Below, one piece after another: positions 7,713-55,066 of a stretch of DNA of 64,000 bases. The first letter of the stretch is position 1. Each line of letters starts with the position of its first letter. The position numbers were made by a program, and so were the translations under genes. Origin of the DNA: Hufsiella arboris (lineage in GTDB: Bacteria; Bacteroidota; Bacteroidia; Sphingobacteriales; Sphingobacteriaceae); contig NZ_WVHT01000008.1 of NCBI RefSeq assembly GCF_009834875.1, forward strand, positions 1-64,000. The letters are read 5' to 3'. The notes under the pieces were generated by a model that saw only the letters and a program-made list of their open reading frames with translations, did not search any database and had not been told where the DNA came from.

Positions 7713-7737
7713 AAATTTTAGAGATTTTAAATGACAA

Positions 7738-10162: not shown

Positions 10163-10201
10163 TACTCGTTATAAAAGTAATTTAACATACCTTCTATTTA
10201 A

Positions 10202-10368: not shown

Positions 10369-10436
10369 GTTGGTATAAATTAGTTTTTGGTTTTTGAATT
10401 TTATGTTGTTGAAAGATGCGGCAGATTCTTTAATTG

Positions 10437-15370: not shown

Positions 15371-15588
15371 TATGTCGATTTAAATTATTTTGATATTAGT
15401 TCTTTTCGTAATGACTCACATTTTTTCGGTTAGTAAACGCTTGATCGCAAATGAACGGATCATCGTTACTGCTGCTTCGAAGATTCGCGTTGCCGAAATT
15501 TTAGCCCTCCATCCCGAGCGTACACGACGAGTTCAAAAGACAACTTATAATGCTTTTGAATTCCTTGCTATATTTAAACGGCCTATGA

Positions 15589-34081: not shown

Positions 34082-34104
34082 AATTTATCGGTTTTAGCTA
34101 AAAA

Positions 34105-37575: not shown

Positions 37576-37659
37576 ACATTCGTTAGTTTTATTTTGTAAA
37601 AAAATAGACAATAGAAACCCCTTGCTACTTTGAGCGGTGCATTGGGGTTTTGAGAAATT

Positions 37660-37688
37660 GCCGGTAAGTGGTGACTACACTTCCCGGC
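37660..37688. terminator. Hairpin between fecR-like and susC genes
   Basis: GCCGG (37660-37664) pairs with CCGGC (37684-37688), with inner AGTG/CACT, and is followed by seven T on the plus strand. For minus-strand transcription it lies past the FecR stop (37745); the T-run is on the opposite side, so termination there would be weak. Confidence 0.4.
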
Positions 37689-37744
37689 TTTTTTTGTTAG
37701 GTCCTATTTACTTCATTAGCGATTTATTTTTAGGTGATTATTGG

Positions 37745-38728: not shown

Positions 38729-38811
38729 AGGCCTGCGGTTATATGCCTATAGTCAGTTGAAAAACTCAGAACCCTTGCCCGTCAAAAAAATATTATCGCC
38801 AATTACCAATT

Positions 38812-39399
38812 TTAAAACAATGCACTCACGAATAATGGTGCCAGCATAAAAAACTGATTCAGACTGAGCCGGAGCCTTTTGAGTGCTTTGGTTAAATGCC
38901 CTTCAACCGTTTTTTCAGAAATTCCCATTTCTGAAGCGATTTCCTTTGTGGTTTTAAACTCATTTCGGCTTAGTTGGTACACAGCCCGGCATTTTACCGG
39001 AAGAAGGCCTATCTGCTTGTCAATAGTTTCTGCCAGATCATTTAGTGATATAACATCTTCCGTCGAGTTGTCAATATCGGTATGTAAATACTCGTAGGCT
39101 TCAACGTAATTTTTTCTGACGTATTTTTTCTGATAGTAATTAAACACACGATAGCGTATGCAAGAGTATATATAGCCGGGAAAGCTTGTGTTGATCTGCA
39201 GCGTTCTTCTGTTCAGCCATAAACTGGTGAAAAAATCCTGGACGATCTCTTCTGCGGTTTCTTTTGACGCCGTTTTTCTGAAAGCCAGTGAATAGGCATT
39301 TGCCCAATAGCGATTATATAACTCTTCGAATGCCTTGCAGTTATCCGCTGATAAAAATGCAATAAGCGCTTCATCAGATGATTTATAAAGATCACTCAT
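38812..39399 (-). CDS. ECF RNA polymerase sigma factor (FecI-like)
   Basis: The 195-aa protein has sigma region 2 (about 18-85; FEELYNRYWANAYSLAFRKT) and region 4 (about 130-180; SRNEFKTTKEIASEMGIS, EKTVEGHLTKALKRLR). It drives the SusC/SusD genes in the same cluster; the order sigma, FecR, SusC, SusD is the classic arrangement. Confidence 0.93.
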   Translation of the reverse strand: MSDLYKSSDEALIAFLSADNCKAFEELYNRYWANAYSLAFRKTASKETAEEIVQDFFTSLWLNRRTLQINTSFPGYIYSCIRYRVFNYYQKKYVRKNYVEAYEYLHTDIDNSTEDVISLNDLAETIDKQIGLLPVKCRAVYQLSRNEFKTTKEIASEMGISEKTVEGHLTKALKRLRLSLNQFFMLAPLFVSALF

Positions 39400-39570: not shown

Positions 39571-39618
39571 CTGAATAAAAAAAGCGGAGAACGATAATTC
39601 TCCGCTTTTTTTATTCAG
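39571..39618. terminator. Long perfect palindrome, bidirectional terminator
   Basis: A 21-bp perfect inverted repeat (39571-39591 with 39598-39618; core AAAAAGCGGAGAA/TTCTCCGCTTTTT) around a 6-nt loop, with A and T runs on both sides. It separates the sigma-factor promoter region from the end of the nan operon. Confidence 0.8.
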
Positions 39619-39656: not shown

Positions 39657-40607
39657 TCACACTCTTTCCAGCATCAGGGGATAGGTTTTTCCTGAATTCC
39701 ACTGCGGTACGTAAAGATTTTCATCTTTATCAACACATATATCATGTGGATGGAAAAATGTTTTACAATCCTGCTTTTGAGGCTGCAATTGTCCGTTAAC
39801 GTAGGTTGGATGCGTGGCTCCCGGTGAAGAAACGACCTTATCATTTTTATCGATCAGAGTGATATAACCCGAACCCATATTTTGATTGTCGCCGGAGCGA
39901 AAAACGGCTCCGTAAACGTTTTCTCCCTGTACCACAGGCCGGCAGATAAACGAGCCCGGAAGGTGAATAGTGGTCAGATAACTCCCATCCATCGTAAAGC
40001 GTTTAAGGGCATTATGGTTCCGCGACGTTATAAGTAAAGTTGGCTCGTCAAACCTGTTATCTATTGCAATGCCATGTACGCAGTCAAATTGGGCGTCACC
40101 GTTTCCTTTGCCGCCCCAATGGCGGATATAATTGCCCATACTGTCGTACTGAATAACAAATTGATGGCCGTATCCATCTGTTACATAGATATCACCGTTA
40201 GGAGAAACTGCCGTTTCGGTTGGCTTATATTCGCCGGCTGATTTATATTGACTTATTTCCTTCGGATAATCCAATATCATCAACTCTTTGCCGTCAAGCG
40301 TAGTTTTAATTACCTGGTGTCTTTCTGTATCGGTAATATACAGGAACTCCTCACTATTTTCATTGCTCAGCGTAAGGCCGTGGGCGCCCGGATAGTTTGT
40401 TCCCCAACTGTTTTTAACCTTGCCATCCTTAGTATATATCAGTACGTTGTTTCTGGTCTCGTTGGTTAAAAGATAGAGCAATCCACTCTTGTCCATTACC
40501 ATTTCGTGGCAGTCTTTTACAGGGTATTTGTCCGGATCCTGGTTTCCCCAGCCTGCATTGACCCGGTACCTGAAATTATTATGGCCGATTAAATTGTTGT
40601 TTTGCAT
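39657..40607 (-). CDS. NHL-repeat (six-bladed beta-propeller) protein
   Basis: The 316-aa protein lacks a signal peptide and has propeller repeats such as DKSGLLYLLTNETRNNVLIY, EEFLYITDTERHQVIKTTLD and NGDIYVTDGYGHQFVIQYDS (each about 45 residues). Related proteins include peptidyl-amidoglycolate lyase-like propellers and lactonase-like enzymes. Last gene of the nan SusC operon, 33 bp after nanA. A sugar-acid lactonase-like role would fit but is not shown. Confidence 0.75.
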   Translation of the reverse strand: MQNNNLIGHNNFRYRVNAGWGNQDPDKYPVKDCHEMVMDKSGLLYLLTNETRNNVLIYTKDGKVKNSWGTNYPGAHGLTLSNENSEEFLYITDTERHQVIKTTLDGKELMILDYPKEISQYKSAGEYKPTETAVSPNGDIYVTDGYGHQFVIQYDSMGNYIRHWGGKGNGDAQFDCVHGIAIDNRFDEPTLLITSRNHNALKRFTMDGSYLTTIHLPGSFICRPVVQGENVYGAVFRSGDNQNMGSGYITLIDKNDKVVSSPGATHPTYVNGQLQPQKQDCKTFFHPHDICVDKDENLYVPQWNSGKTYPLMLERV

Positions 40608-40640
40608 TTGCAGGTGAAGTTAGTGAAAAGTTGTAGCAGC

Positions 40641-41576
40641 TTAATTTGCGATAACGGTTTTTACTTGTGTATGATCCTGTAATAATTTGAAAAAACCTAC
40701 CCGTTCAAGATCTGCTTGAAGATTAGCATATGCATCATCAGAAAGAGGGGCAAGCGGTAATCTTGGATTTCCCATGTCAACTCCAAGCATTTTCATTATA
40801 GCTCGTTGTGCCGCAATTGAAGGATGTTTAACAATACACCTGATAAAATCGACCACCTTCAGCTGCAATTTACCCGCTTCGTCAAGTTTACCTGCACGGT
40901 ATAACTCAATGATGCGGAGGTATACCGGCGCTGCAAATGTATAGGTGCTGCCGATAGCTCCGACTGCACCCACAGCCAACGCGGGCAGCAACATTTCATC
41001 ATAACCAAACAGCACTTCGAATCTGCCATTTTTATAATTGAGGCATGCCTGGTATTCGTGAAGGGTCGCAGCGGTATATTTAATACCCGCCAGGTTTGGA
41101 ATGCTTTGCTCTCCCAATGCTAAGAACTCCACCATGTCCATGCCTACGCCGGTTAAAGCAGGCATATGGTAGTAGTAGAATGGAAGTGTTGGAGCGGCGG
41201 ATGCAATTTCGGCCATACAATCAACCAGGTTTTGCACCGATACCGGCTTAAAGTAGAAAGCAGCAACTGACGAAAAAGCATCCGCACCAATTTTTGCTGC
41301 ATGAGCGGCCAGTTTTTTAGATTCTTCGATAGAGGTATGGCCAACATGCACCAAGACCAATATGCGTTTTTGTACCGCATTTACATACGCTTCTGCGACA
41401 GCCATGCGTTCTTCTACCGTCATGTTAGGACCTTCGCCATTCGTGCCACAGATATAAACGCCTGAGACTCCGTCTGCTACCAGTTTATCAACAAGCGCCG
41501 GTATTATATCTGTATTTAGCGATCCATCTTTGTGATAGGCGGCAAATGTAGCGGCAACTATTCCCTGAATTGTCAT
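40641..41576 (-). CDS. nanA: N-acetylneuraminate lyase
   Basis: This aldolase cleaves N-acetylneuraminate to N-acetylmannosamine and pyruvate in the cytoplasm. The 311-aa protein has the lyase-type signature YYHMPALTGVG (Tyr that interacts with the substrate), the Schiff-base Lys in LAGIKYT (near residue 165), GTNGEGPNM and AIGSTYTF. These resemble human NPL and bacterial NanA rather than DapA. It lies in the PhyH-nanA-NHL part of the SusC operon. A second, different DHDPS-family gene is at 53289-54236. Confidence 0.88.
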   Translation of the reverse strand: MTIQGIVAATFAAYHKDGSLNTDIIPALVDKLVADGVSGVYICGTNGEGPNMTVEERMAVAEAYVNAVQKRILVLVHVGHTSIEESKKLAAHAAKIGADAFSSVAAFYFKPVSVQNLVDCMAEIASAAPTLPFYYYHMPALTGVGMDMVEFLALGEQSIPNLAGIKYTAATLHEYQACLNYKNGRFEVLFGYDEMLLPALAVGAVGAIGSTYTFAAPVYLRIIELYRAGKLDEAGKLQLKVVDFIRCIVKHPSIAAQRAIMKMLGVDMGNPRLPLAPLSDDAYANLQADLERVGFFKLLQDHTQVKTVIAN

Positions 41577-41645
41577 GTATAAAATTTAGATTGTATATAG
41601 TAATTTCTGTTCGATACGGTGTTATGCCGTATATTTTCGTCGTTA

Positions 41646-42425
41646 TTAAATAGTTGCTTCAAATGTTCTTACTTCGTCAAAACGCGTATTTCCACTAACC
41701 AGTCTTCCTAAGCGCGGTTTGCCGTTATTGTAAACTTCGATGGCGTCTGCATCTGCATATCTTAAAAAGAGTATACGTCGGTCACGGTCAGTTGAATAAT
41801 TACCATCAGATTTATGAAGCATCCAGCAGTTAAATATCAAAGAGTCGCCGGCCTTCATTTCCATCGGAACGGCAAGGCTGTCATCGGCGTCTACCACTAT
41901 TTCTGATTGACTCTTTTTTTGCGCCTCATCCTGTTCCACGCGAATTTGCCCCTGCTTATGGCTACCCGGGATCAACCATAGGCAGCCATTGCCACGGTCG
42001 GTATCGTCCAGAGCTGTAAGCGTCGTAAGTGCATTGTATGGTTCCAATTCTCCATAGCCATTATCCTGGTGCCAGCCGAAGGGTTTGGTATTTCCCTTCA
42101 TTTTAAAGGTTAGCTGCGATGTTGCACCTTTTACATTTGGTCCGATAAGTTGATTGGCGACACCAATTAAAGGCCCTTCAAAATAATAGTCGCGTACGGT
42201 GGGTGCCTGGTGATGAATATTAACCAACAGAGAATTCTGCAGCCAGCTTTTATTGGGATCAAATCCTTCCTTTTCTTTCTCCCAGGCTGCCATACATTCC
42301 TTTCTCATCTGGTCTATACCTTCCTGTTTCAAAATTCCTTTGATAATCAGAAAGCCGTTTTCGTTGTATGACGCTAGTTCCTCTTTTGTGAGTTTTCTAT
42401 AGTTAAACAAATCGTCCTTTTTCAT
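41646..42425 (-). CDS. Phytanoyl-CoA dioxygenase (PhyH)-family protein
   Basis: The 259-aa cytoplasmic protein has the Fe(II)/2-oxoglutarate site: HQDNGYGELEPYNALTTLTA (HxD, near residue 119) and the distal His in NCWMLHKSDGNYS with the 2-OG-binding Arg in RRILFLRY. PhyH enzymes hydroxylate small molecules. It lies 20 bp from SusD and 69 bp from nanA, so it is cotranscribed with the sialic acid genes, which is unusual. The substrate could be a sialic acid or its breakdown product (inference). Confidence 0.85.
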   Translation of the reverse strand: MKKDDLFNYRKLTKEELASYNENGFLIIKGILKQEGIDQMRKECMAAWEKEKEGFDPNKSWLQNSLLVNIHHQAPTVRDYYFEGPLIGVANQLIGPNVKGATSQLTFKMKGNTKPFGWHQDNGYGELEPYNALTTLTALDDTDRGNGCLWLIPGSHKQGQIRVEQDEAQKKSQSEIVVDADDSLAVPMEMKAGDSLIFNCWMLHKSDGNYSTDRDRRILFLRYADADAIEVYNNGKPRLGRLVSGNTRFDEVRTFEATI

Positions 42426-42445: not shown

Positions 42446-43891
42446 TTAATAACCAGGTGTTTGTGTAAGGTTTTTATTTGCTGCGAGCACGGTTGCTGAT
42501 AGCGGCCAGAACAAAGGCGTTGTTTTACCCACTAAGTTAGGTACATAAGTATAAGCGTTGATGGTTCCGCCAAAATGGAAGCGTACAATATCATACCAGC
42601 GTTTGTTTTCAAAAAACATCTCGCGACCTCTTTCATCGAAAATGGCACGTTCAAGAGTGGCTTTATCGGTGTTGCCGGCGTAATTGCCATTTCCTGCTCT
42701 TACACGTACTTTGTTTAAGTATTCAATGGCTTTACCGGTATTACTAATGGCAGCATAGGCTTCAGCTTCAATCAGGTAAATATCAGCCAGGCGCCACATA
42801 ATTATATCGTTGTCTGATATCCTGTCGTCAGTGTATTTATTACCAGGAAGTTTGATAGCCCAGTAGTGTTTTGGAGTTGTGCCCTGGCGTTCCGTGATAA
42901 ATGTATATGGTTTACGTTTGTCATTTGGCAATCCGCTAAACAACTGGCGGCTCTTCAGACTTACCTCGTAGCCGCTCTGGCCGTTAACTGATGTTAACGT
43001 ATAAGGAATGCTGTCGAGGTTTGAAGCAGCCTGCACGGTTTGGTAAAAAGGCAAAGCGTTTAAAGCATAGTTAGCTCCTGTCTCGTCGCGCTGATAGTAG
43101 GCTGACATAATAACTTCAGCATTGGCACGCGTGGTGGTCACATCTTTAAAATTTGTTAACAAACTTACACCGGTGGCTTCAACGGCCGCTGCTGCAGTGA
43201 TTGCATCATTGTAATCAGCAGCACCGCTTTCGGTCACTTTAGCGCTCCATAATTTCGCTTCAGCTTTGAGGGCCTGGGCAGCGCCGTAAGAAAAGCGGTA
43301 TTTATTGGCATACGTTTTCTCGGGAAATAAAGAGGTTGCTTGATCCAGGTCGGCAAATATCTGCTTTAATACGTCAGCAGCCTTGGAGCGTGGCAGCAAA
43401 GGGACGTTGTCATCGTTAACGGCAGTTAGCATTAACGGTGTATCTCCTACAACGCGCACCAGGAAGAAGTAAGTATAAGCTCGCTGGCAAAGTGTTTCAG
43501 CTTTTAACCTGTTTTTTGTTGCCGGATTTGAGAAATTAAAGGGTTCTATCTTGTCTAGTAGCAAATTACAGCTGCCAATAGCTTTATACTGCCCGTTATA
43601 ATTGATGGTGCCGGTTGTGTTTGACAATATTTGCGACCATGCAGTGCTCAAACGCGAATTGGGGCCCTGTATTAATTCCTCGCTGCGTTCAGTGCCATAA
43701 GTAATAGAATTAGCAAAGGCGCGGATAGATGTGTAATTTCCTATAACAAAGGGTTCGAAATCACCCTCATTTTTAAAATATACCTGGCCGGTAATTTGCG
43801 ATTGCGGAGTAACATCCAATAGCTTTTGACAGCCTGTAAGGCTTGCCAGTATCAAAGCTGCTATAGTTGTTGCTTTATGTATCTTTTTCAT
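42446..43891 (-). CDS. SusD-family lipoprotein of the sialic acid locus
   Basis: The 481-aa protein has a lipobox (LASLTGCQK, Cys about 21), VTPQSQITGQVYFKNEGDFE, TPR-like helices (LCQRAYTYFFLVRVVGDTPL) and the typical FDERGREMFFENKRWYDIVR and FWPLSATVLAANKNLTQTPGY end. It follows its SusC by 13 bp. By position it corresponds to NanU, the sialic acid binding SusD homologue of Bacteroidota nan loci; that equivalence is by context. Confidence 0.9.
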   Translation of the reverse strand: MKKIHKATTIAALILASLTGCQKLLDVTPQSQITGQVYFKNEGDFEPFVIGNYTSIRAFANSITYGTERSEELIQGPNSRLSTAWSQILSNTTGTINYNGQYKAIGSCNLLLDKIEPFNFSNPATKNRLKAETLCQRAYTYFFLVRVVGDTPLMLTAVNDDNVPLLPRSKAADVLKQIFADLDQATSLFPEKTYANKYRFSYGAAQALKAEAKLWSAKVTESGAADYNDAITAAAAVEATGVSLLTNFKDVTTTRANAEVIMSAYYQRDETGANYALNALPFYQTVQAASNLDSIPYTLTSVNGQSGYEVSLKSRQLFSGLPNDKRKPYTFITERQGTTPKHYWAIKLPGNKYTDDRISDNDIIMWRLADIYLIEAEAYAAISNTGKAIEYLNKVRVRAGNGNYAGNTDKATLERAIFDERGREMFFENKRWYDIVRFHFGGTINAYTYVPNLVGKTTPLFWPLSATVLAANKNLTQTPGY

Positions 43892-43904: not shown

Positions 43905-46900
43905 TTAGAATCTTAATGATGCACCAAATGTGTATTGTCTTGGTCTTGGATAACCCCCCGGATCAAATCCTACATAACTTTCCGGATTCTGGCCTTTGTA
44001 TTTTGTCAGATAACCAAGGTTGGTTGCACTTAAGAATACCGTTAAGCCGGTTGATTTAATTTTAGACATGAGTTTCTTTGACAGATCGTAGCTTAAATAA
44101 AGTTCACGAAACGCCAGGAAATCTCCTTTTGTGATCATAGTTGAAACATCTGATGCATACGCGCTGCCAGTACCTACATCAGCAGCGGCCTGCCTTACAT
44201 AATTTTTTTGGCCAACATCTGCATCGCCGAAAGAGAAACGCGCATATTTTTTACCTTCGTCGCCCGGTTTTTGCCAGATGTCATTTCCAAGAGCTTCAAT
44301 AGGCGCCCCCTCATTATATGCTCTTGCCTGTCCCAACGAACGCGCCAGGTTGCCATTGGATATGACGTGTCCTAAAGCAAAATCCATATTGAAGCGAAGC
44401 GTAAAGCTTTTATAGGTGAATGAATTTTGCATACCACCGGTAACATTCGGTGTTTTATAACCTATAAATACCAGGTCCTTCGTATCAATAATGCCGTCGT
44501 TATTAATATCGGCAAACTGATAATCGCCGGCTTTTTTTCCGACAGCAAGTCCGCCGGTAGTGGATGCAATATCTTTGTGTGTCGCACTCCATGTTGCAGC
44601 CTCCGCATCGGTTGAAAAAACTTTTTCAACCTTCCATGCATAGTAACTGTATGGACGTTCACCTTCAGCAAAACCACCAACTTCAATATCCGTACCTGTG
44701 CCAGGATCAGCAATTACGCCGCCACCCTGCCTGTTTTTTAAGCGTCCGTTGTCTGGCAGTGATATGATCTTTTGCGAGTTGTAGGCATAGGCAAGATTGG
44801 CGTTCCACCGGAAATCTTTTGCTCTTAATACAGTCGCCTGAAGTTCAATCTCGATTCCCTTGTTTTGAAGCACGCCGTTGTTAAATATAATTGATGAAAA
44901 AGGGGCTTCTGCCGGCAGTGGTTTTGAATCAAGCCTGTCTTTTGTAAGCTTGTTATATAAGTCGACGGTTAAATTAATGCGGTCTCCCAGGAAGCCTGCG
45001 TCAACAGCTACATCGGTTGTTTGAGTTGTTTCCCATCTAAGGTTCGGGTTAGAGAGATTTGCCCGCTGAATGCCGGAAAGCTGATTGTAGACTGTAGCGG
45101 AATAACCGCCATATGTGTCGGTATAACTCAAGTCGTTAGATCCGGCCTGGCCCCAGCTGCCCCGTAGTTTAAGCATGCTTACCAGGTTATTTTGTTTCCA
45201 AAAGCTTTCCTTGAAGATGTTCCAGCCTATTGATGCCGATGGGAAAGTAGCGTACCTGTTACCAGGTGAAAAGTTTGAAAAACCATCGCGTCTGATTACC
45301 GCATTGACTAAATATCTGCCTTCATAATCGTATCCAAACTGGCCAAAAAAGCTGGCTGATTTATTTTCACTGAGTGTGGTTCCAAAGTTAGTTACATTGG
45401 TTACGGTAGTTCCGTTAACGGTTGTAAGCGGTGGTTCACTAATGGTTGTAATGTAATCGTTTGTTCCTCTTTGCGAGCCAATATCTATCGCATTGCCTGT
45501 ATTGCGGGTGTAATTGAATCCGCCCAGCAACATAAAATGATGAGATACTTTCCAGGAATAATCGTACTGTAAAATCTGATCGATCATTAACTGGCGTGTA
45601 TTATTCTGGTTTTCTGTTTTTAAACGGCTGGTAGCAAATTGTATCGGATCGGGAAATGCCTTCCTTGAAAAAATAGTTCTGGCGTCGCCGATCAGATATG
45701 ATACCGCCGGGCGGAAGTGCAGGCCTTTCACAATATTCCAGTCAAGGTCAACTTTTGATACAACCCTTTCTGTTGAAATGTTATTATCGTCATATGCCAG
45801 TGTATGGAAACGGTTACGTACTGTTAATACTTCACCGGTAGTTGGCGTGCCATCATCTTTAAATAGCCTTATCAAAGGAGTGATACGCGTTGCACGCACG
45901 ATGTCGTTGGTATATCCGTCAACATAATTAGGCAGCAAATTCTGGTAATTAAGGGATGCATTTACCTGTATGTTATTGCTTGCTTTAAAGCTAAAGTTTC
46001 CTAAAGCGCTATAGCGTTTGTAACTGGTTCCTACAAAAGTTCCTTCCTGGTTTATGTGATTGAAAGACACATTGTAGCTGGCAACATCACTGCCACCGTC
46101 GATGCTTAAGTTGTAGTTATTGGTAGTACCGGTATTCCAAAGCAAGTCCTGATAATGGTTGTCGTCAAACAGTAATTTAGAGCCGGGATTAACCGGATCG
46201 TCCATTGTTTCCCATCCTTTGGCGAGCAGGTTATCTACGTATGCCTGGCCTTCAACAGCAACGATGTTGTCGTATAGAGCTGTTGTATACATCGCATTTC
46301 CATATTGCCCCTTTGCTGTATAAACTTTTGTGCCTGCAGAAAAACCAGCGTTATTCAGGAATGCGTTCTTATCCTGCGGATCTGAAGTGTTTTTGATGGT
46401 CGTACGCGCCAGGGCAATGTACTGAGCAGCAGTCATGTATTTTTCCTGGCCTGTTGCTACTTCGCGGTTGGTACGATAGTTAAACGTAATGTTTGCTTTG
46501 CCCGAGCCGAACTTACCGCTTTTGGTTTTCACTACGATAACGCCATTAGCACCGCGTGCTCCATAAATAGCTGTTGAAGCGGCGTCTTTCATTACCTGTA
46601 ATGATTCGATGTCATCAGGGTTTAGGTCGTTCAATGTCCTGAACACGCCATCAATAACAACCAGCGGACTCGAGCCATCAGAGTTTAAATACGGATTACC
46701 GTTGGCATTCCCGGTACCTTGACCATACACATTAGGCTTTGAGCCGCCACGTATAATCACGTTTACAGGAGCTGCCCCTGGTTGGCCGTTTGACAATGGA
46801 ATAGAAACACCAGCGATTTTGCCCTGCATTGCCGCAAGCGGACTCGGATTGGCAGCATTGACCAATTGTTTTGTATCAAGCTTGGATACTGCGGCTGTGT

Positions 46901-47264
46901 TTTTTTGGCGTGTCTGCTGGGAGTAACCAACGATAACTACCTCTGTCAGCGATTTGCTGTTAGATGCCATCGTAACGTTTATTGCCGTTCTTCCCTTTAT
47001 AGTTATTTCCTGGGAGTCAAATCCTATAAACGAAAAGACAAGGGTTGAAGCAGTTGACGGTACATTTAGGGAATACTTACCTTCAGCATTACTTGTAGTG
47101 CCTATAGTTGTTCCTTTTACCTTAATACTTACACCCGGTAAGGTTTCATTTTTTGTTCCGTCGGTTACTACTCCCGAAACAATTAAGCTGTTTGATTGGC
47201 CGTACACCCTTCCTGCGACGAGGAAGCAGGCTAATAGCCATAAATAAATTAGTCTTCGATTCAT
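43905..47264 (-). CDS. SusC-family TonB-dependent transporter of the sialic acid locus
   Basis: The 1119-aa protein has a signal peptide (1-22), a carboxypeptidase-regulatory-like domain (VSGVVTDGTKNETLPGVSIK), a TonB-box region (SLTEVVIVGYSQ), a plug (AASTAIYGARGANGVIVVKT) and a barrel ending GASLRF. No STN domain, so it is not FecI-regulated, unlike the SusC at 34105-37575. First gene of the operon; an operator-like palindrome lies 17-29 bp upstream of the start. By position it corresponds to NanO. Confidence 0.9.
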   Translation of the reverse strand: MNRRLIYLWLLACFLVAGRVYGQSNSLIVSGVVTDGTKNETLPGVSIKVKGTTIGTTSNAEGKYSLNVPSTASTLVFSFIGFDSQEITIKGRTAINVTMASNSKSLTEVVIVGYSQQTRQKNTAAVSKLDTKQLVNAANPSPLAAMQGKIAGVSIPLSNGQPGAAPVNVIIRGGSKPNVYGQGTGNANGNPYLNSDGSSPLVVIDGVFRTLNDLNPDDIESLQVMKDAASTAIYGARGANGVIVVKTKSGKFGSGKANITFNYRTNREVATGQEKYMTAAQYIALARTTIKNTSDPQDKNAFLNNAGFSAGTKVYTAKGQYGNAMYTTALYDNIVAVEGQAYVDNLLAKGWETMDDPVNPGSKLLFDDNHYQDLLWNTGTTNNYNLSIDGGSDVASYNVSFNHINQEGTFVGTSYKRYSALGNFSFKASNNIQVNASLNYQNLLPNYVDGYTNDIVRATRITPLIRLFKDDGTPTTGEVLTVRNRFHTLAYDDNNISTERVVSKVDLDWNIVKGLHFRPAVSYLIGDARTIFSRKAFPDPIQFATSRLKTENQNNTRQLMIDQILQYDYSWKVSHHFMLLGGFNYTRNTGNAIDIGSQRGTNDYITTISEPPLTTVNGTTVTNVTNFGTTLSENKSASFFGQFGYDYEGRYLVNAVIRRDGFSNFSPGNRYATFPSASIGWNIFKESFWKQNNLVSMLKLRGSWGQAGSNDLSYTDTYGGYSATVYNQLSGIQRANLSNPNLRWETTQTTDVAVDAGFLGDRINLTVDLYNKLTKDRLDSKPLPAEAPFSSIIFNNGVLQNKGIEIELQATVLRAKDFRWNANLAYAYNSQKIISLPDNGRLKNRQGGGVIADPGTGTDIEVGGFAEGERPYSYYAWKVEKVFSTDAEAATWSATHKDIASTTGGLAVGKKAGDYQFADINNDGIIDTKDLVFIGYKTPNVTGGMQNSFTYKSFTLRFNMDFALGHVISNGNLARSLGQARAYNEGAPIEALGNDIWQKPGDEGKKYARFSFGDADVGQKNYVRQAAADVGTGSAYASDVSTMITKGDFLAFRELYLSYDLSKKLMSKIKSTGLTVFLSATNLGYLTKYKGQNPESYVGFDPGGYPRPRQYTFGASLRF

Positions 47265-47338: not shown

Positions 47339-48514
47339 TCAGCGTTTGAGAAGGTTGCTTAAACCGATCGTTTTAAAGGCAATTCCTTCGTATGGTTTGA
47401 GGATTCCAGCCTCGTAGAGACAGGCAATTTCATTGTTATAAACTGCGATATCAGAATATGCAGAAGGGCCCTGGTGAATTACTTCGCTATTAATCCAGCT
47501 TTTTCCATTATCCAGACTTGCTCTTACCGTTACGTTGGAGCGCGACGTAGCACTTGCAGGATTGCTGAATAATAAGACAGATTTGCGCTTGGATATCGAA
47601 TAATTAAGCAAGCTGCCCTGGCAAATAGGTTCGATTAAGGTGCTGTCGGTTTTTAACTTGTTCCAAGTTTGGCCTCCATTGCTGCTTACAGTTGTCAACC
47701 TGGTTTTATGGGCACGGTTGCTGTTACGCATATTGAGCATTAACCTTCCGTTCGATATCTCGGCTACTGTAGTTTCATTGGCCATATCCTGCGGTGTATT
47801 ATTGCCTAATTTCCAGGTCGCGCCGTGATCGTCAGAGTATATAATATGAGCGAAGTTTTTATCAGTTGAAGCTTCCACATGGTTTACAGGCACAACCAAA
47901 CGGCCTTTATATTTACCGTGGGACAGTTGTACTCCATGACAAGGCCCGGTAGCATACCATGTCCAGTCGGGCATTTTTACCTGGGATGTAATCTCCCGCG
48001 GGGATGACCAGGTCGTTCCTTCATTATCCGACGAAAGAACATAAACACATCGGCCGCTTTTACTTTTTTGATACCTTATTTCTTTTTCATGATCTGTCCC
48101 CAAATTCCATGTACTGATTAACCATATTTTTCCGGTAGTGATATCCTGAATAGGCACGGGATTGCCACAGGTATTGGTAGAATCACTCCAAACTACCTGC
48201 ATATCACTCCAGGTTTTACCGCCGTTTGCTGAGCGTCGTAATACGAGGTCGATATCACCTGTATCTCCGCAATTGTTTTTACGTGCTTCCGCAAAGGCCA
48301 GTAAGATGCCATTTTTTGTGGTTAGTATCGCGGGAATACGGAAACATGAATAGCCGTTGTCCCCAGGTTTGTACAGATAGTTAAGAGGTTCGCTGCGTGA
48401 TATCAGGCTATCGTTTGTTTGAGCAATGCAATCAAAATGTTGCGCGACAAAAAAACAAAAGACTACCGTAAGACCGCGGAAAAGCTGTTTCGCTATTTTT
48501 AACTGTATAGTCAT
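47339..48514 (-). CDS. Exo-alpha-sialidase (GH33), secreted
   Basis: Sialidases remove terminal sialic acids from glycoconjugates. The 391-aa protein has a signal peptide (about 1-31), the FRIPAIL motif (RIP, near residue 58), and Asp boxes SANGGKTW, SSDNEGTTW, SDDHGATW and SSNGGQTW. It lies upstream of the SusC operon in the same orientation, with its own promoter (-7 TACATTTG at 48547-48540, minus strand) next to a palindrome operator at 48561-48573. Confidence 0.93.
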   Translation of the reverse strand: MTIQLKIAKQLFRGLTVVFCFFVAQHFDCIAQTNDSLISRSEPLNYLYKPGDNGYSCFRIPAILTTKNGILLAFAEARKNNCGDTGDIDLVLRRSANGGKTWSDMQVVWSDSTNTCGNPVPIQDITTGKIWLISTWNLGTDHEKEIRYQKSKSGRCVYVLSSDNEGTTWSSPREITSQVKMPDWTWYATGPCHGVQLSHGKYKGRLVVPVNHVEASTDKNFAHIIYSDDHGATWKLGNNTPQDMANETTVAEISNGRLMLNMRNSNRAHKTRLTTVSSNGGQTWNKLKTDSTLIEPICQGSLLNYSISKRKSVLLFSNPASATSRSNVTVRASLDNGKSWINSEVIHQGPSAYSDIAVYNNEIACLYEAGILKPYEGIAFKTIGLSNLLKR

Positions 48515-48610: not shown

Positions 48611-49867
48611 TTAATATCCCACAGGTTCAGTTGCGCCATTTACTATCCATGGCAGATTAAATTTGTGAAATACGATCGAGCGATGACTGGTACTGCTATT
48701 GCCTGTGTCTTCATTATATTCAATCAGTGCGCCTACCTGGAGGTCGGCTGTTTTTGCAAGGCTTGAATAACCACCCAATTTTCCGGGAGACGATCCGAAT
48801 GAGGGGATATCGCGTCCAATAGGATAAGTAGTGCCTTCATCATAACTTATCCTTATTTTCATAGCTGTTCTGGTAGTTTGACTTGCTGAGTTTAGAAAAA
48901 GTATCCGGTTAGGTTTCGGATCGTTGTACCGCCAGACAGAGCCTTCGCTGGCAGGATCCGGAAGATTTGTATTCGAAGCCCATGTGGGAAAGCCGCCGCC
49001 AAGAGAACCTGTAGCTACTTGCCGGTAAAGCGGGAGTGTTGAAGTAGGGCGGTCGTTTCTTAGCAAATCACCATTTAGTTTCTCGATAATTGTACTTTCT
49101 GTCGATTTTGTGGTTCCATTGGTGATAACAGATTCAGTCCAGGTAATGCCATGGTTGGTACTATAAATATTACGTCCGTAAGCTGGGATTATAAGAGTGC
49201 CGGCATCTGTGCCATGCAGCTTATAAATACCGGTTCCCGGTCCGATCCAGTCTTGTGCCGTTCCTGAAGGTTGTGTTGTACTGGTAACGTTCACAGGTGC
49301 AGACCATGTTGCTCCTTCGTCGGTACTTGAACAAACCCATACAGTCCTGTCTCCTGGTTGAAAAGCGAGGTACGATCCGTCCGGGTTTGAATAATGCGTA
49401 GAGTCGTTATGAAGCATAAATACAAAAATTTTACCGGTGGATTGGTCGACAACCGTCGTTGGATTACCATCTGTGTAATTTCCAGGCCCGGCGATCGCCT
49501 GAAGCGGCTGCCATGTCACGCCGTCGTCAAACGATCGCTTACAAACTATATTAATATTGCCGTAATCCTTGTTGTTGTCATTTCTTCCTTCGCAGATAGC
49601 AATGAGATAGCCGTGCTCAACGGTGCGTATTAAAGATGGAATGCGGTAGGAGTGATAACCATCCAACCCTCCCGTGAATATCTTTTGTGCGGAATAAGAA
49701 GGATCAGCTGATAACTTAAATTTGTTCTCCTGGTTTATTACTGTTTTAGCCAAGGCGTTCTGAATTGGTTTTTTGCAGGAAATGGCCAACAGTGAACTTA
49801 TTGAACATAGCGTAATAAAAGCTTTTGGGTAAAAAGAGCGGGCTCTTTTTGTAAGGCATTTTTTCAT
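48611..49867 (-). CDS. Sialidase (GH33), lipoprotein
   Basis: The 418-aa protein has a lipoprotein signal (LAISCKKP, Cys about 31), the RIP motif in YHSYRIPSLIRT, and Asp boxes SFDDGVTW and SSTDEGATW, then SYDEGTTY. It is probably anchored at the surface, complementing the exported sialidase at 47339-48514. Divergent from the esterase gene; the shared operator at 49925-49937 lies between them. Confidence 0.9.
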   Translation of the reverse strand: MKKCLTKRARSFYPKAFITLCSISSLLAISCKKPIQNALAKTVINQENKFKLSADPSYSAQKIFTGGLDGYHSYRIPSLIRTVEHGYLIAICEGRNDNNKDYGNINIVCKRSFDDGVTWQPLQAIAGPGNYTDGNPTTVVDQSTGKIFVFMLHNDSTHYSNPDGSYLAFQPGDRTVWVCSSTDEGATWSAPVNVTSTTQPSGTAQDWIGPGTGIYKLHGTDAGTLIIPAYGRNIYSTNHGITWTESVITNGTTKSTESTIIEKLNGDLLRNDRPTSTLPLYRQVATGSLGGGFPTWASNTNLPDPASEGSVWRYNDPKPNRILFLNSASQTTRTAMKIRISYDEGTTYPIGRDIPSFGSSPGKLGGYSSLAKTADLQVGALIEYNEDTGNSSTSHRSIVFHKFNLPWIVNGATEPVGY

Positions 49868-49982: not shown

Positions 49983-50897
49983 ATGAAAAGTATTTCTGTT
50001 ATCACTATCATGGCGGCATTGCTATTTGTTATTACTGAATCAAAGGCTCAGACCGTAATTCCTCTGTATAAAAAAGTACCTAATTCAAAAAAAAGTGATG
50101 TGGAAGAAAAAAGTGATTCCACTTCCAAACGGGGTAAGGTAAGTAATGTCGTTAATCCGACGATTACAGCTTTTTTTCCTGAAAAATCAAAAGCGAACGG
50201 TACGGCTGTTATTATCTGTCCAGGAGGAGGCTACTCGTACCTTGTGGTTAATGATGAAGGCAGCAATGTGGCAAAGGAATTTGCTGCGCGCGGTGTAGCT
50301 GCTTTTGTGTTGAAGTACAGGCTGCCAAATGATGTGATCATGGTTAACAGGGAGATAGGTCCTTTGCAGGATGCCCAGCAAGCGACAAAAATAGTTCGCG
50401 AAAATGCAAAAGAATGGAATATTGATCCGGCGAAAGTTGGAATAATGGGATTTTCAGCCGGCGGACATTTGGCTTCAACGGCGGCAACTCACTATCAAAA
50501 AGCGGTGATTGACAATCCTCTAAAAACTAATCTGCGGCCGGATTTTGCTTTACTGATCTATCCTGTAATTAGCTTTCAGGATAGTATTTTACATAAAGGA
50601 TCCAAAAAAGCACTCATCGGGGAAAACGCTGGTACTGAAAAAGTTATAGAATACTCTAATGAAATGCAGGTTACTGCTGATACGCCGCCGACGTTTCTGG
50701 TACATGCCTCCAATGATAAGGTTGTTCCTGTAGCTAACAGCATTAATTATTACACGGCATTGCAAAAACATGGAGTAAATGCGGAGATACATGTTTATCA
50801 ATCAGGAGGTCATGGATTTGGATTGAATAATCCAACCACAACAGATAAGTGGCTGGAGCATTGCTTCAATTGGATGATTGTTAATCATCTTTTGTAG
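49983..50897 (+). CDS. Secreted alpha/beta hydrolase, acetyl-esterase-like
   Basis: The 304-aa protein has a signal peptide (1-22, ending SKA) and a family fold: oxyanion hole region IICPGGGYSYL, nucleophile GFSAGGH (Ser near 158), acid in HASNDKVVP and His in GGHGFGLN. It resembles BD-FAE/acetyl-xylan esterases. In this locus a role in removing O-acetyl groups from sialic acids is likely by context but not proven. Convergent with the MFS gene (8 bp between stops). Confidence 0.85.
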   Translation: MKSISVITIMAALLFVITESKAQTVIPLYKKVPNSKKSDVEEKSDSTSKRGKVSNVVNPTITAFFPEKSKANGTAVIICPGGGYSYLVVNDEGSNVAKEFAARGVAAFVLKYRLPNDVIMVNREIGPLQDAQQATKIVRENAKEWNIDPAKVGIMGFSAGGHLASTAATHYQKAVIDNPLKTNLRPDFALLIYPVISFQDSILHKGSKKALIGENAGTEKVIEYSNEMQVTADTPPTFLVHASNDKVVPVANSINYYTALQKHGVNAEIHVYQSGGHGFGLNNPTTTDKWLEHCFNWMIVNHLL

Positions 50898-50905: not shown

Positions 50906-52153
50906 TTAAGCTTTTTTGCCGATCCTGATCCTTAGCAGAGACCATGCTGCAATTATCATTAGTATCGCCGAAACCTGATAAATAATAGCCAGACTGATAT
51001 TTGCATCCATAAGCATACCACCTACATAAACCATTAAGCCGCCGATGATCGTGCTTAAAAAGTTAAGAAAGCCATATCCTGTGGCAATATAGCGTTCGTC
51101 TATAACCTGGCACAGGATTGGCATCAGGTTACTATCATTAATTCCGCGAGCAATTCCGTATACGATCATCGCAATAATAGCTATGCCGAATACATGTGTT
51201 GATGCCATTAGAAAAAGAAAAGGCGCGCCTAATGTAAATCCGATAATAACCATATATAAACGGCTGCGTTTATTGGTACGGAACCATCGGTCGGCAAGAA
51301 TGCCCCCTAATACCACACCTAAAAATGAACCGATTTGAATGTATCCAGTTGCTGAAAGTCCGGCCTTACCCAAATCGAGTACAAAGTGTTCCTTTAAAAA
51401 GGTTGGCAGCCAGCCGTATATCATCCAGTTAACCACACCTAGTATGCAGAAATAGAAAAGTAAAACCAGGAAAGAACTCTCAGAAACCAACATTTTTACC
51501 GTTTGAAACAGATTTAACCGCTCCTCTTTCGAATCAGGTAATTCTGCCTGTAAAACTTCCGTTGTGCTATGTTTTTTATCCTGCAAAAAATAAATAAGGA
51601 TAATTCCGTAAACAACCCCGAATAAACCAATCATCTGAAAACCATAGCGCCAACCCCACAACATGGAAATATAGCCGCCCACGCCGCCTAATGCCTGGCC
51701 GGCATACAAGCCGCTCATATGAAGTCCCGTTGCAAAAGAGCGGGTTTTACCTTTGTGATAATCGGCTATCATTGCCAATCCTGCCGGAATATAACATGCC
51801 TCACTGATGCCCATGATTACCCTAGCTATCAGCATTTCATGGAAAGAAGTAACAAATCCCGTCCAGAGAGTTACGGCAGACCAGATACAGACGCTAAATA
51901 CAATGATGCTTTTACGGCCATATTTATCAGCTAAATAGCCGCCTAAGGGGCTTAAAATGCCGTATGATATTAAGAATACGGTAGTGAGTAATCCAAACTG
52001 TGCATCCGTCAGCTTAAAGTCTGACACAATGGGATCACGCATGGAAGTGATCAGATTTCTGTCAAAGTAATTGAGGAACGCAACTATCCAAAGTATTCCT
52101 ACTATTGCCCATTGGTAAAAGGATCCGGCTGGTTTTGTAATTCTGGTTTGCAT
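50906..52153 (-). CDS. MFS transporter, probable sialic acid permease (NanT-like)
   Basis: The 415-aa protein has 12 predicted membrane segments, the MFS motif between helices 2 and 3 (GGYLADKYGRKSI) and its repeat after helix 8 (GGILADRWFRTNKRS). Last gene of a three-gene operon after a DHDPS-family lyase and a NanM-like mutarotase. Inner-membrane transport of sialic acid, as done by NanT in other Bacteroidota, is the context-based call. Confidence 0.85.
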   Translation of the reverse strand: MQTRITKPAGSFYQWAIVGILWIVAFLNYFDRNLITSMRDPIVSDFKLTDAQFGLLTTVFLISYGILSPLGGYLADKYGRKSIIVFSVCIWSAVTLWTGFVTSFHEMLIARVIMGISEACYIPAGLAMIADYHKGKTRSFATGLHMSGLYAGQALGGVGGYISMLWGWRYGFQMIGLFGVVYGIILIYFLQDKKHSTTEVLQAELPDSKEERLNLFQTVKMLVSESSFLVLLFYFCILGVVNWMIYGWLPTFLKEHFVLDLGKAGLSATGYIQIGSFLGVVLGGILADRWFRTNKRSRLYMVIIGFTLGAPFLFLMASTHVFGIAIIAMIVYGIARGINDSNLMPILCQVIDERYIATGYGFLNFLSTIIGGLMVYVGGMLMDANISLAIIYQVSAILMIIAAWSLLRIRIGKKA

Positions 52154-52168: not shown

Positions 52169-53299
52169 TTAGAATTTTATCAGGTTAAATTGATCCAAAT
52201 TCAATGAGATTAATTTTGGAGTGCGAACTGCCGGCCGTACTTCGCCGCAGGGAAATACTACATAATTATTCCAGGTCACTGAAGTCGTAGTAACAGGTAT
52301 CCAAAGGCTGCCATTGGGATTTGTAGCCGCATCCGGCTTCTTAGATGTTTTTAATTTGATATTATCGATCCAGGAATTGGCAGGAATGTCATACCTCAGT
52401 ACATGATCTGAAAAGCCGGGATGCTGATCCTTTAGAACAGCTGTACTATCAGCTAATTTTCCATCATCACCGCCAAAGATCAGCAAATTGTTCCTGTTTA
52501 ATTCAAATGCAGGACCTGGGGCTGCTACAGTAGCTGCCGGCATATCGGCAAGTCTTTGCCATCCTTTGCCAGGAACATATTTGTAAGCGTCGTTGAGATA
52601 ATGCCTGTGAGCAGTGCCATTTCTTTCCTCGAGGTTTGTACCGCTGAAAAGAAAAAACCCTTCTTTATCTACAGATCCCGCCACGCCAAGCATGCGTGCA
52701 GGACCGGGCCAGCTCTCCAATTGTTGCCATTGACAGGTTTTCGGATCAGACAGATTTAAAGACCAAAAAATACTGGCGGCGCTTTTGGCATCGGGAGAAA
52801 GCAACCCGCCGGCGATGTAAATTTTATGATTGAAAACGGCTCCGCAGGAATTTGCCAGCGGTTGCGGCAGATCGGCCCATTTTTCTATTATTATTTTCTT
52901 ACTAACATAGCTGATTGCATAAACAGTTGCGAGGTGTCCTTCAGCATTACTGCCACCAATACAAATCAGTTTATTATCGTAGCTAATAGAAACGCCATAG
53001 CCCATTGATTGTGGCAGCTTTCCGGCAAGTACCCATTTTCCGGTAGGTTTATCTAAAGCAAATATTTTATCGGTCCATACTTTTTTAGATCCGGTCCAGG
53101 GTGCCCCGCCGTCCGGGAAGTTAGCTCCACCGGCAACAAGCAGAGATCCGTGAGATAAACCTGCGAATGAACCGGCAAAACCGAATTTGTCTGGTACGGC
53201 TGCTAGTTCGTCTATTTTTAAAGTAGTTGTTTTCCTTTCCTGTGCTTGCGTAAATACCGTCATAAATAAACAGATGATAGATAATAAATTACATTTCAT
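52169..53299 (-). CDS. NanM-like N-acetylneuraminate epimerase (kelch mutarotase)
   Basis: Start at ATG 53299 (MKCNLLSI, 376 aa, overlapping the lyase stop by 11 bp); a TTG lies at 53311. Signal peptide (about 1-20), then six kelch blades (LLVAGGANFPDGGAPWTG, KLICIGGSNAEGHL, KIYIAGG, NLLIFGGDDGK). These fit the cyclically permuted mutarotase family, which equilibrates alpha and beta anomers of sialic acid in the periplasm before transport. Confidence 0.85.
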   Translation of the reverse strand: MKCNLLSIICLFMTVFTQAQERKTTTLKIDELAAVPDKFGFAGSFAGLSHGSLLVAGGANFPDGGAPWTGSKKVWTDKIFALDKPTGKWVLAGKLPQSMGYGVSISYDNKLICIGGSNAEGHLATVYAISYVSKKIIIEKWADLPQPLANSCGAVFNHKIYIAGGLLSPDAKSAASIFWSLNLSDPKTCQWQQLESWPGPARMLGVAGSVDKEGFFLFSGTNLEERNGTAHRHYLNDAYKYVPGKGWQRLADMPAATVAAPGPAFELNRNNLLIFGGDDGKLADSTAVLKDQHPGFSDHVLRYDIPANSWIDNIKLKTSKKPDAATNPNGSLWIPVTTTSVTWNNYVVFPCGEVRPAVRTPKLISLNLDQFNLIKF

Positions 53300-54236
53300 G
53301 TGATGTCTCAAAAAAATTGGGGATCAATTGCCTGGCTCTTTCGCGAACCGGCAAAACATGTTGATCTGCGATCCATTTATAGGGCCATCTTAAACGAGTT
53401 CCCACTTGATAACAACCGCCAACCGCAGCTAAGAATTTATCTAACGCTGGATTTGAAAAACCGTTCCTTTGCAATGGCGCAATACATTCCTCAAAAAAGG
53501 CTAAGATGTTTTTTTCGATTTCAAGCGCTTCTTTTATGTTGGTTTGCATCAGTTGCCACCACTTTTGCGCAGCTTTAGGATTGATGCATGCTACATTTGA
53601 ATAAGCGCCTGACGCAATGCCGCATTCAACACCAGTGGCCAATAAATGTCCGGGAACAAAAATGGACAAATGCGATGCATATTGTTCCATCTCTTTTGCC
53701 CAGGTCTGGTCATGGCTTAATAACTTTACGCCAATCACTTGTGGTATATTTTCAAATAATGAGTAATCCTTGGGTTGCAACACAAACTTGGCGTGTGGCG
53801 GGTTATAAAGAACCAATGGAATATCGCCTGCTGCGTCGGCTAATCGTTGCATATAATCCAGCAGTTCTGATTCGGTAGCAATTATCCAATCAGGTAAAAT
53901 CAATTGGATAGCGTCGGGTTTCAGCGCTGCGGCAATTTTCAATCTTTCTAATGAAATAATAGGAGAGGGATGACTGGCGCCAATCTGAAATCGCATTCCA
54001 GTGTCGAGGCATTTTTCCGAAAGTATTCTATTAATCCGCGCATACTCATCTTCGGTTTGATTGTGAAATTCTCCGGCTGTTCCATTTGAGTATATGCCAT
54101 CGACCCCGGATTCAATGAGCATGTCAATTTCACCGGCAAGTTTCTGATAGTTGATCGAGTCATCGGCATTAATTGGTAGTAACAGGGTGGCCCAATTACC
54201 TTTTAAGTTCTTGGCGTTTAATTTTTCCTTCGTCAT
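53289..54236 (-). CDS. Dihydrodipicolinate synthase-family aldolase
   Basis: The 315-aa protein is a DHDPS/NAL TIM barrel: SNGTAGEFHNQTEDEY, QIGASHPSP, VLYNPPHAKFVL (Tyr) and the Schiff-base Lys in VIGVKLLSH (near residue 166). It lacks the YYHMPALTG signature of the lyase at 40641-41576, so it may act on another 2-oxo acid. First gene of the operon with nanM and the MFS gene; an operator-like palindrome lies 57-69 bp upstream. Confidence 0.8.
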   Translation of the reverse strand: MTKEKLNAKNLKGNWATLLLPINADDSINYQKLAGEIDMLIESGVDGIYSNGTAGEFHNQTEDEYARINRILSEKCLDTGMRFQIGASHPSPIISLERLKIAAALKPDAIQLILPDWIIATESELLDYMQRLADAAGDIPLVLYNPPHAKFVLQPKDYSLFENIPQVIGVKLLSHDQTWAKEMEQYASHLSIFVPGHLLATGVECGIASGAYSNVACINPKAAQKWWQLMQTNIKEALEIEKNILAFFEECIAPLQRNGFSNPALDKFLAAVGGCYQVGTRLRWPYKWIADQHVLPVRERARQLIPNFFETSHEM

Positions 54237-54367: not shown

Positions 54368-55066
54368 TTATTTATTAGCTAAACTATCGAAATGGGGTTT
54401 CAGATGCTCGTACATGCCAGCTTTAAAATCTTCTTTGGTGCCGGTTTTGAGAATTTCAACCAGATCCACATGGTTCACCTTTCCAATTTTGTATTCTTCT
54501 TTTTCCATGGTTGTTACATAGCCGAACACCGGAAGGAGCATTACCTGGAAACGTTTTAAGGTATTGTTACCAGTCATCTCATATAGCTTTCCATGGAAAG
54601 CTATTTCGTTTTTCACTCTGAATTTTTTTTCGCCTTCGTGGCCTTCATCGCGAGCGATTTTTTCTAACTGTAAGATGTCTTTATCGGTTTTTCTCAAAAA
54701 TAATAAATCGGCTAAACCCATTTCGAGTACCAACCGCAATTCAAATAAGTCTTGTAAGGTGCTGTCATCAATAATCAAGGGATCCAGTACACGTTCAAAT
54801 GTACCGAGGACATCAGGACGGGCAAGTAGCATACCACGTTTTTTCCGGGTTTCTATCATACCCAGCATTCGCAAACGGCTTAACGCTTCACGTACAACAT
54901 TACGGCTAACGCCAAGAGCAGCTACAAGTTCCATTTCTTTTGGAAGCGGATCACCCGGCTTAAAAGATTTTTTCTTGAAATATTCTCTTAACCGAAGTTC
55001 CACAATATCAGCCATTGTGTCGGTTGAAACACGTCCAAGATCTTTACTTAAATTTTCTAAAGCCAT
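54368..55066 (-). CDS. GntR/FadR-family regulator of the sialic acid locus
   Basis: The 232-aa protein has an N-terminal winged helix (about 17-80; GDPLPKEMELVAALGVSRNV, VREALSRLRMLGMIETRKKR) and a C-terminal FCD domain (FELRLVLEMGLADLLFLRKT, AFHGKLYEMTGN), the architecture of NanR. It is the only regulator in the locus and is the obvious binder of the palindromes at 47281, 48561, 49925, 54293 and 55102. Ligand: sialic acid or ManNAc (inferred). Confidence 0.85.
   Translation of the reverse strand: MALENLSKDLGRVSTDTMADIVELRLREYFKKKSFKPGDPLPKEMELVAALGVSRNVVREALSRLRMLGMIETRKKRGMLLARPDVLGTFERVLDPLIIDDSTLQDLFELRLVLEMGLADLLFLRKTDKDILQLEKIARDEGHEGEKKFRVKNEIAFHGKLYEMTGNNTLKRFQVMLLPVFGYVTTMEKEEYKIGKVNHVDLVEILKTGTKEDFKAGMYEHLKPHFDSLANK

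Follow-up and report, generated by a model that had tools for sequence, protein, structure and literature searches.

The locus

The DNA analyzed is a 64,000-nucleotide stretch of the Hufsiella arboris genome (contig NZ_WVHT01000008.1, positions 1 to 64,000), termed the window. The subject is a minus-strand operon within it, in which a gene for a predicted Fe(II)/2-oxoglutarate (2OG) dioxygenase of the PhyH family (PhyH1) lies among sialic acid genes. The genome (G000, phylum Bacteroidota) is 4.8 Mb in size and 99.97% complete. Reading from 49867 to 39657, the operon consists of two BNR sialidase-like genes followed by SusC, SusD, PhyH, a NanA-type lyase and an NHL propeller protein (Table 1). 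A preliminary description had reported a co-directional SusC-SusD-PhyH-nanA-NHL series with gaps of 13-69 bp, and this was confirmed with spacings of 13 bp (SusC/SusD), 20 bp (SusD/PhyH), 69 bp (PhyH/NanA) and 33 bp (NanA/NHL). The linkage is not chance, as this set of genes is seen again in other genera. Genes beyond that description are the two sialidase-like genes, an upstream unit of GntR, DHDPS2, NanM and MFS, and an opposite-strand alpha/beta hydrolase gene, which alone separates the upstream unit from the operon. The hairpin flanking NHL (39618-39571) was the longest among 24 sites found, with 16.1 expected from shuffled sequence.

Table 1. Features of the sialic acid locus in the window.
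Feature	Position	Strand	Evidence
Intrinsic terminator-like hairpin, 3' of NHL	39571..39618	-	20 pairs, 7 G-C; top minus-strand site
NHL six-bladed propeller, PAL-like lyase candidate	39657..40607	-	Pfam NHL E 4.1e-12; PAL 3fvz match
NanA-type N-acetylneuraminate lyase	40641..41576	-	Pfam DHDPS E 8.8e-60; PDB matches; motifs
PhyH1, predicted Fe(II)/2OG dioxygenase	41646..42425	-	Pfam PhyH E 5.6e-32, 112.2 bits vs gathering score 22
SusD-like lipoprotein	42446..43891	-	Pfam SusD; NCBIfam best NanU, below cut-off
SusC-like TonB-dependent transporter	43905..47264	-	TIGR04056 708.9 bits
Sialidase-like protein, BNR repeats	47339..48514	-	Pfam/NCBIfam profiles
Second sialidase-like protein, BNR repeats	48611..49867	-	Pfam/NCBIfam profiles
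Alpha/beta hydrolase, conserved neighbor	49983..50897	+	Family by eye; match in 9/46 PhyH1 loci
MFS transporter	50906..52153	-	NCBIfam best D-galactonate transporter, below cut-off
NanM-like mutarotase	52169..53311	-	NCBIfam, below cut-off
DHDPS2, second DHDPS/aldolase-family protein	53289..54236	-	Far under all named NCBIfam cut-offs
GntR-type regulator	54368..55066	-	By eye and recurrence; match in 12/46 PhyH1 loci

The best PDB matches of the NanA-type protein are N-acetylneuraminate lyases (5afd, E 1.9e-68; 6h4e, E 2.7e-65), and its score is under the NCBIfam nanA equivalog cut-off (153.6 versus 382 bits) and that of PRK04147 (178.3 versus 281). K166 and the G-x-D-E and G-S-T-Y motifs, which we take to be the Schiff-base lysine and the sugar-binding motifs, are kept in 14/14 aligned members. 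The PhyH1 structure model has a mean confidence (pLDDT) of 90.6. Residues H119, D121 and H204 are invariant in all 37 aligned sequences and presumably form the HxD...H iron ligands.

The preliminary description had suggested that the operon might make a hydroxylated sialic acid. A hydroxylase is present, but the remaining identified genes serve release, uptake and cleavage, and neither a sialic acid synthase nor a CMP-transferase was seen among the longer open reading frames at 30-64 kb inspected by eye. Synthesis would be an unlikely function for a locus that has sialidases, NanM, SusC/D and a lyase, and we regard this explanation as extremely improbable.

PhyH1 is found beside sialidase genes in other genomes

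PhyH1 was found in 4 of 395 genomes of the phylum, G000 among them (E up to 1e-30). A wider search scanned two short peptide patterns over the genomes of 84,980 species and returned 60 loci; orthologs without both patterns escape this search. The window protein was the reference that defined the ortholog group, which consists of 46 loci at 52-86% identity, two of them partial. The other 14 loci, at 30% identity or less, formed the outgroup. Most of the 46 PhyH1 loci are labeled Bacteroidota, Planctomycetota or Verrucomicrobiota; a small number of other labels occur on metagenome-assembled genomes (MAGs). Neighboring genes were scored with hidden Markov models (HMMs) for sialidase, NanM, DHDPS and others that were built from the window and the PhyH1 loci themselves and are thus tuned to these loci. 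A sialidase or NanM match was present in 27/46 PhyH1 loci versus 0/14 outgroup loci, one of which spans only 3.8 kb.

The association is strongest on Bacteroidota-labeled contigs. The linkage of PhyH to nan-type genes proposed earlier held up in this survey, with a sialidase in all 16 Bacteroidota-labeled PhyH1 loci and in 0/14 distant PhyH loci. A Bacteroidota-type set of 18 was defined by adding L082 (labeled Williamsia; it has SusC/D) and L083 (uncultured bacterium). L083 joined on account of its genes, which makes its inclusion circular; with both counted, a sialidase matched in 18/18 loci. PhyH1 lies one gene from a sialidase, NanM or DHDPS gene in 17 of these 18, and in L083 the PhyH1 match (1868-2629) stops shortly before the sialidase at 2652. 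The remaining 28 PhyH1 loci, many on short contigs, have a sialidase in 8 cases. Gene content is illustrated by Flavihumibacter soli (L075), with Sia-PhyH1-NHL only, and by Pedobacter sp. Leaf194 (L078), with GntR-Sia-SusC-SusD-PhyH1-DHDPS2-NanA-NanM-MFS-NHL. Larger loci (L079, L081, L082 and L087) also hold a D-2-hydroxyacid dehydrogenase and an aldonate-dehydratase-like protein.

The frequent adjacency of PhyH1 and a sialidase gene raises the alternative that PhyH1 acts upstream of NanA, removing or altering a sialic acid modification (for example by oxidative O-demethylation or N-glycolyl processing) and thereby enabling NanA cleavage. A SASA sialate O-acetylesterase is encoded in L082 and a similar protein was recognized by eye in L080, so modified sialic acids appear to be handled there. 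The presence of PhyH1 with NanE and a ROK kinase in two Comamonadaceae MAGs fits this explanation as well. However, a role upstream of NanA leaves the missing epimerases and the co-occurrence of a second aldolase, both described below, unexplained, and we judge it unlikely.

Known routes from N-acetylmannosamine look broken in G000

Three sialic acid routes are set out in the available portion of a review (PMC10017367): NanA/NanK/NanE, the Bacteroides fragilis route, which relies on an AGE epimerase, and the route through 2,7-anhydro-Neu5Ac. The word dioxygenase is absent from that portion, in keeping with the earlier view that standard Bacteroidota nan loci have no 2OG dioxygenase. A search that extended to the open-licence PubMed Central (PMC) literature found no dioxygenase in sialic acid catabolism.

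NanE (PF04131) had no match in G000; of the 49 genomes searched, only three gave one, namely two Comamonadaceae MAGs and G575. PF07221 covers AGE as well as cellobiose epimerases. PF07221 proteins were found at E 1e-10 in 14 of 21 genomes, 19 of which carry PhyH1. A nan-type AGE was defined as a PF07221 protein 57% or more identical to those of other genomes' nan loci, and by this definition it is absent from 10 of the 19 PhyH1 genomes (G000, G021, G034, G536, G538, G539, G540, G545, G548 and G564). There was no PF07221 match at all at this threshold in G021, G536, G538, G539, G548 and G564, some of which are MAGs.

G000 encodes two PF07221 proteins, each 25% identical to nan-locus AGEs. Two nan-locus AGEs of other genomes served as yardsticks, with matches to AGE structures at 9e-170 and 2.8e-222. 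The first G000 protein is a cellobiose 2-epimerase relative (2e-111). The second, of 556 amino acids, matches the best structures of the yardsticks at only 6e-18 and 2e-13 and has a signal-like start by eye. These comparisons make a ManNAc (N-acetylmannosamine) epimerase in G000 unlikely. With neither NanE nor a close nan-locus AGE relative encoded in G000, a near-complete genome, both known routes onward from ManNAc look broken there.

Control loci were drawn from the phylum sample, in which 33 of 36 NanA places were examined; three were in PhyH1 genomes and the 30 without PhyH1 were used. An AGE gene was present in 16/30 control NanA loci versus 0/18 Bacteroidota-type PhyH1 loci (Fisher p = 8e-5, uncorrected for relatedness). 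Restricting the set to Bacteroidota-labeled loci gave 0/16 versus 16/30 (p = 2e-4, again uncorrected for relatedness). Over all 46 PhyH1 loci, AGE occurs in L090 and NanE in L093 and L099; weaker locus-level NanE matches were disregarded because the HMM contained the neighboring ROK protein (316 amino acids). The last two loci are on Comamonadaceae MAGs. L099 carries apparent GntR, TRAP transporter, DHDPS, NanE and ROK kinase genes followed by PhyH1 (3832-10774), and L093 carries NanE, ROK, a SIS protein and PhyH1 (583-4007).

The missing NanE and AGE would also be expected if the locus served a sialic acid that lacks the N-acetyl group, for example 2-keto-3-deoxynononic acid (KDN). Its cleavage would yield mannose and require no ManNAc epimerase, one of the G000 PF07221 proteins could be a hexose epimerase, and PhyH1 would have a role unrelated to nitrogen. 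Against a KDN locus, the best match of SusD is NanU and the best matches of NanA are N-acetylneuraminate lyases, and the explanation assigns no role to PhyH1, NHL or DHDPS2. We consider it very unlikely.

A second aldolase co-occurs with PhyH1

DHDPS2 was found in 5 of 395 genomes of the phylum (E up to 1e-50), comprising all 4 with PhyH1 plus G182. The hypergeometric probability of this co-occurrence is 5e-9, uncorrected for relatedness. DHDPS2 and PhyH1 are on separate contigs in G021 (C94 and C87). Within the NanA loci taken from the phylum sample, those of PhyH1 genomes included, DHDPS2 was restricted to L256 and L285, and each of these belongs to a PhyH1 genome. The G182 copy lies immediately after an NHL gene of the window NHL clade, in a 20-kb stretch that gave no PhyH match. 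The class I aldolase lysine and tyrosine are kept in 14/14 DHDPS2 members, which have the motif G-T-A-[GC]-E versus G-[TS]-[NT]-G-E in NanA members.

The NHL protein resembles PAL

PHM, a copper hydroxylase, and PAL, a lyase, together form the PAM system for peptide amidation, in which PAL converts an N-acyl-alpha-hydroxy carbon to an amide and a carbonyl. PAL was third in the phmmer ranking for the window NHL protein as the PAL domain of PAM (7.4e-11), after fly Thin (2.3e-19) and TRIM71 (6e-11), whose matches run through generic NHL repeats. The NHL structure model (pLDDT 89; 6 sequences) gave PAL 3fvz as the top Foldseek match (E 5.3e-15). By VIA, the NHL model aligned to PAL with Z 30.9 and a root mean square deviation of 2.6 over 272 residues, and to gluconolactonases with Z of about 25.6.

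The PAL residues that we take to be the zinc ligands (His 585, 690 and 786) and the catalytic Tyr654 and Arg706 fall on H76, H178, H288, Y146 and R196 of NHL, respectively, in the phmmer alignment; H288 was aligned in a second, weak stretch. H76, Y146, H178, H288 and D289 are present in 58/58 members of the NHL family and R196 in 57/58. The catalytic dyad of PAL is a Tyr/Arg pair (human Tyr651/Arg703) according to the available text of PMC10303134. The alignment and the structure model together make the NHL protein a candidate PAL-like protein with predicted lyase activity.

The preliminary description had cast NHL as a lactonase-like partner. This was not supported: PAL ranks first in Foldseek, the PAL positions are kept, gluconolactonases rank lower by fold, and the SGL domain had no Pfam match in NHL at E up to 1e-3. 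The lactonase was demoted to part of an alternative in which PhyH1 oxidizes the anomeric carbon of ManNAc to a lactone or acid, NHL opens the lactone, and a sugar-acid pathway ends in DHDPS2. The dehydrogenase and dehydratase-like proteins of the larger loci, the resemblance of the window MFS protein to a D-galactonate transporter and the propeller fold shared with gluconolactonases all agree with a lactone intermediate; the retained PAL residues, PAL as the top fold match and the missing SGL/gluconolactonase domain weigh against it. On balance this alternative is distinctly unlikely.

A phylogenetic tree placed the window NHL in a supported clade (98/94) of 9 comprising the window, L031, L032, L033, L034, L072, L079, L087 and L294. 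Of these nine loci, 7/9 also contain PhyH1 or a second PhyH (PhyH2). Of this clade, L032 has MFS-NanM and L294 has DHDPS2. PhyH2 and NHL overlap by 1 base in L079 and by 4 bases in L087, and adjoin in L034. NHL at 61% identity or more was found in 4 of 316 genomes (G000, G021, G034 and G182), each of which also has DHDPS2. G393 has an NHL at 60% that is off the tree and no DHDPS2; G150, a genome outside the 395- and 316-genome samples, has two NHLs of the window's clade. An obligatory PhyH and NHL pair was rejected: the window-clade NHL is present in only 6/19 PhyH1 genomes and absent from 13/19, so it cannot be obligatory.

In L034, PhyH2 adjoins NHL (9567-11424) in a locus with GH20, NagA-like, NagB-like, MFS, a BNR protein, a GntP permease and a glycerate kinase, and no NanA is present there. 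The PhyH2-NHL pair of L034 may serve other N-acetyl sugars too. More distant NHL relatives (43-57% identity) are found in L036, L053 and about 20 loci of similar gene sizes, in operons that by eye consist of a DUF1549/1553 cytochrome, DUF1501, NHL and a DUF2231/cytochrome protein.

Proposed oxidative branch of sialic acid catabolism

We regard the locus as a sialic acid catabolic system that differs in its middle part. Our tentative proposal, held with confidence a little short of even, is that it encodes an aerobic, epimerase-free branch of this catabolism. Sialidases would release sialic acid, SusC/D, NanM and MFS would import it, and NanA would cleave it to pyruvate and ManNAc. PhyH1 would then hydroxylate ManNAc, or N-acetylmannosaminate if C1 is oxidized first, at the acetamido-bearing carbon. 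Where the PAL-like NHL protein is present, it would cleave this carbinolamide, releasing acetamide and leaving a 2-oxo sugar or sugar acid. A second aldolase step would fall to DHDPS2, with the 2-oxo acid as its substrate either at once or after reduction and dehydration. We infer the substrate of PhyH1, the carbon attacked, acetamide as the product and the order of the steps.

The combination of an Fe/2OG hydroxylase and a PAL-like lyase after NanA, with no NanE and no close AGE relative, suggests an oxidative removal of acetamide from ManNAc or the corresponding acid. Such removal would yield a 2-oxo sugar or its acid, a suitable substrate for a class I aldolase such as DHDPS2. The missing epimerases and the co-occurring DHDPS2 point to a C6 sugar after NanA as the substrate, rather than a hydroxylated sialic acid. 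The dehydrogenase and dehydratase-like genes of L079, L081, L082 and L087 would be fitting for conversion of 2-ketogluconate to 2-keto-3-deoxygluconate (KDG), or for a hydroxypyruvate cleavage product that is then reduced.

The full chemistry, an oxidative de-acetamidation of sialic acid in several phyla by a 2OG oxygenase, a PAL-type lyase that releases acetamide and a second aldolase, is a doubtful proposition taken as a whole. Equally doubtful is its corollary that such a route needs neither a ManNAc epimerase nor NagA/NagB and places the PAL fold in catabolism.

Several observations weigh against the proposed branch. A nan-type AGE is encoded elsewhere in the genome in 9/19 PhyH1 genomes, G556 among them. 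The 556-amino acid PF07221 protein of G000 matches 8h1k, labeled N-acylglucosamine 2-epimerase, and a cellobiose epimerase equally well (1.7e-40 and 3.1e-40), which leaves a small probability of a ManNAc epimerase in this genome. Two Comamonadaceae MAGs (L093 and L099) hold PhyH1 beside NanE and a ROK kinase. The patchy distribution of the window-clade NHL, absent from 13 of the 19 PhyH1 genomes, extends to five (G536, G537, G538, G541 and G545) with no NHL match at all. VIA ties PAL with TRIM2 (7qrv, Z 30.7) as the closest fold to NHL, and the NHL relatives in the unrelated cytochrome operons keep the PAL positions with no hydroxylase partner seen. A C1-oxidizing enzyme is absent from the operon, and a search of the open-licence PMC literature returned nothing relevant on a ManNAc dehydrogenase.

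The fate of the predicted acetamide is a further difficulty. The FmdA/AmdA acetamidase (PF03069) was absent in 19 of 23 genomes, including G000, with other amidase families unsearched. An acetamidase was set aside as the downstream gene; the presence of PF03069 in only 4/23 genomes counts against acetamide unless another amidase serves. NagA is present in G000 and 18 others of the 23 genomes and was not found in four (two Comamonadaceae MAGs, G540 and G548). PhyH1 as a plain replacement for NagA was rejected on this distribution. The patchy NHL, the lack of PF03069, the MAGs with NanE, the presence of NagA, AGE elsewhere in the genome and the option of a modified sialic acid therefore hold the epimerase-free branch just short of even and leave the full chemistry unlikely.

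Relation to known systems

A close parallel is the PAM system, in which a hydroxylase forms a carbinolamide that a six-bladed propeller lyase cleaves; the window NHL protein has the PAL fold and the His/Tyr/Arg positions. The window differs in that the hydroxylase candidate is an Fe/2OG PhyH protein and the two are separate bacterial proteins in a sugar operon with no peptide involved. The available text of PMC12508155 describes a bacterial pair, MgdH and MgdL, a 2OG dioxygenase and a hemiaminal lyase encoded in one operon for methylguanidine demethylation. Its authors state there that PAL is the only similar activity known to them and that MgdL and PAL lack sequence homology. As far as that text goes, both systems pair a 2OG dioxygenase with a dedicated lyase encoded in the same bacterial operon, the window's pair being predicted. 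The Mgd substrate is methylguanidine and MgdL has no sequence homology to PAL, unlike the lyase candidate of the window, a PAL homologue.

The B. fragilis nan route (NanL, NanE-II (AGE) and RokA; available portion of PMC10017367) shares a DHDPS-family lyase with the window, and the window SusD is NanU-related. Compared with the route as given there, the window locus has no AGE and G000 no close AGE relative, and PhyH1, NHL and DHDPS2 are present instead. The Escherichia coli nan route (NanA, NanK and NanE) has the NanA-type lyase in common with the window, and NanE is absent from G000.

If the proposal is correct, there would be an oxygen-dependent catabolic branch for sialic acid, perhaps also for other N-acetyl sugars, that is invisible to surveys keyed to NanE. 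According to the available text of a metagenomic survey (PMC10570557), sialidase genes far exceed nanE in some free-living habitats, by about 143 times in floodplain. An epimerase-free branch, if real, could partly account for this excess. The PAL lyase fold would likewise gain a bacterial sugar role, and the locus would provide a second dioxygenase-plus-lyase pair.

Additional observations

Recurrent side genes occur close to the PhyH/NHL loci L063, L082, L083, L294 and L295. Those of L063 encode RidA, a class-III aminotransferase and an M81 protein, and others recognized by eye encode ceramidase-like, dipeptidase and D-serine-dehydratase-like proteins. These side genes are possibly ganglioside-linked. 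In the window, another SusC/SusD pair with FecR-like and ECF-sigma-like genes (32555-39399) lies immediately beyond the terminator-like hairpin of the operon. The G+C content at 10001-16000 is 0.33-0.36, below that of the remainder of the window.

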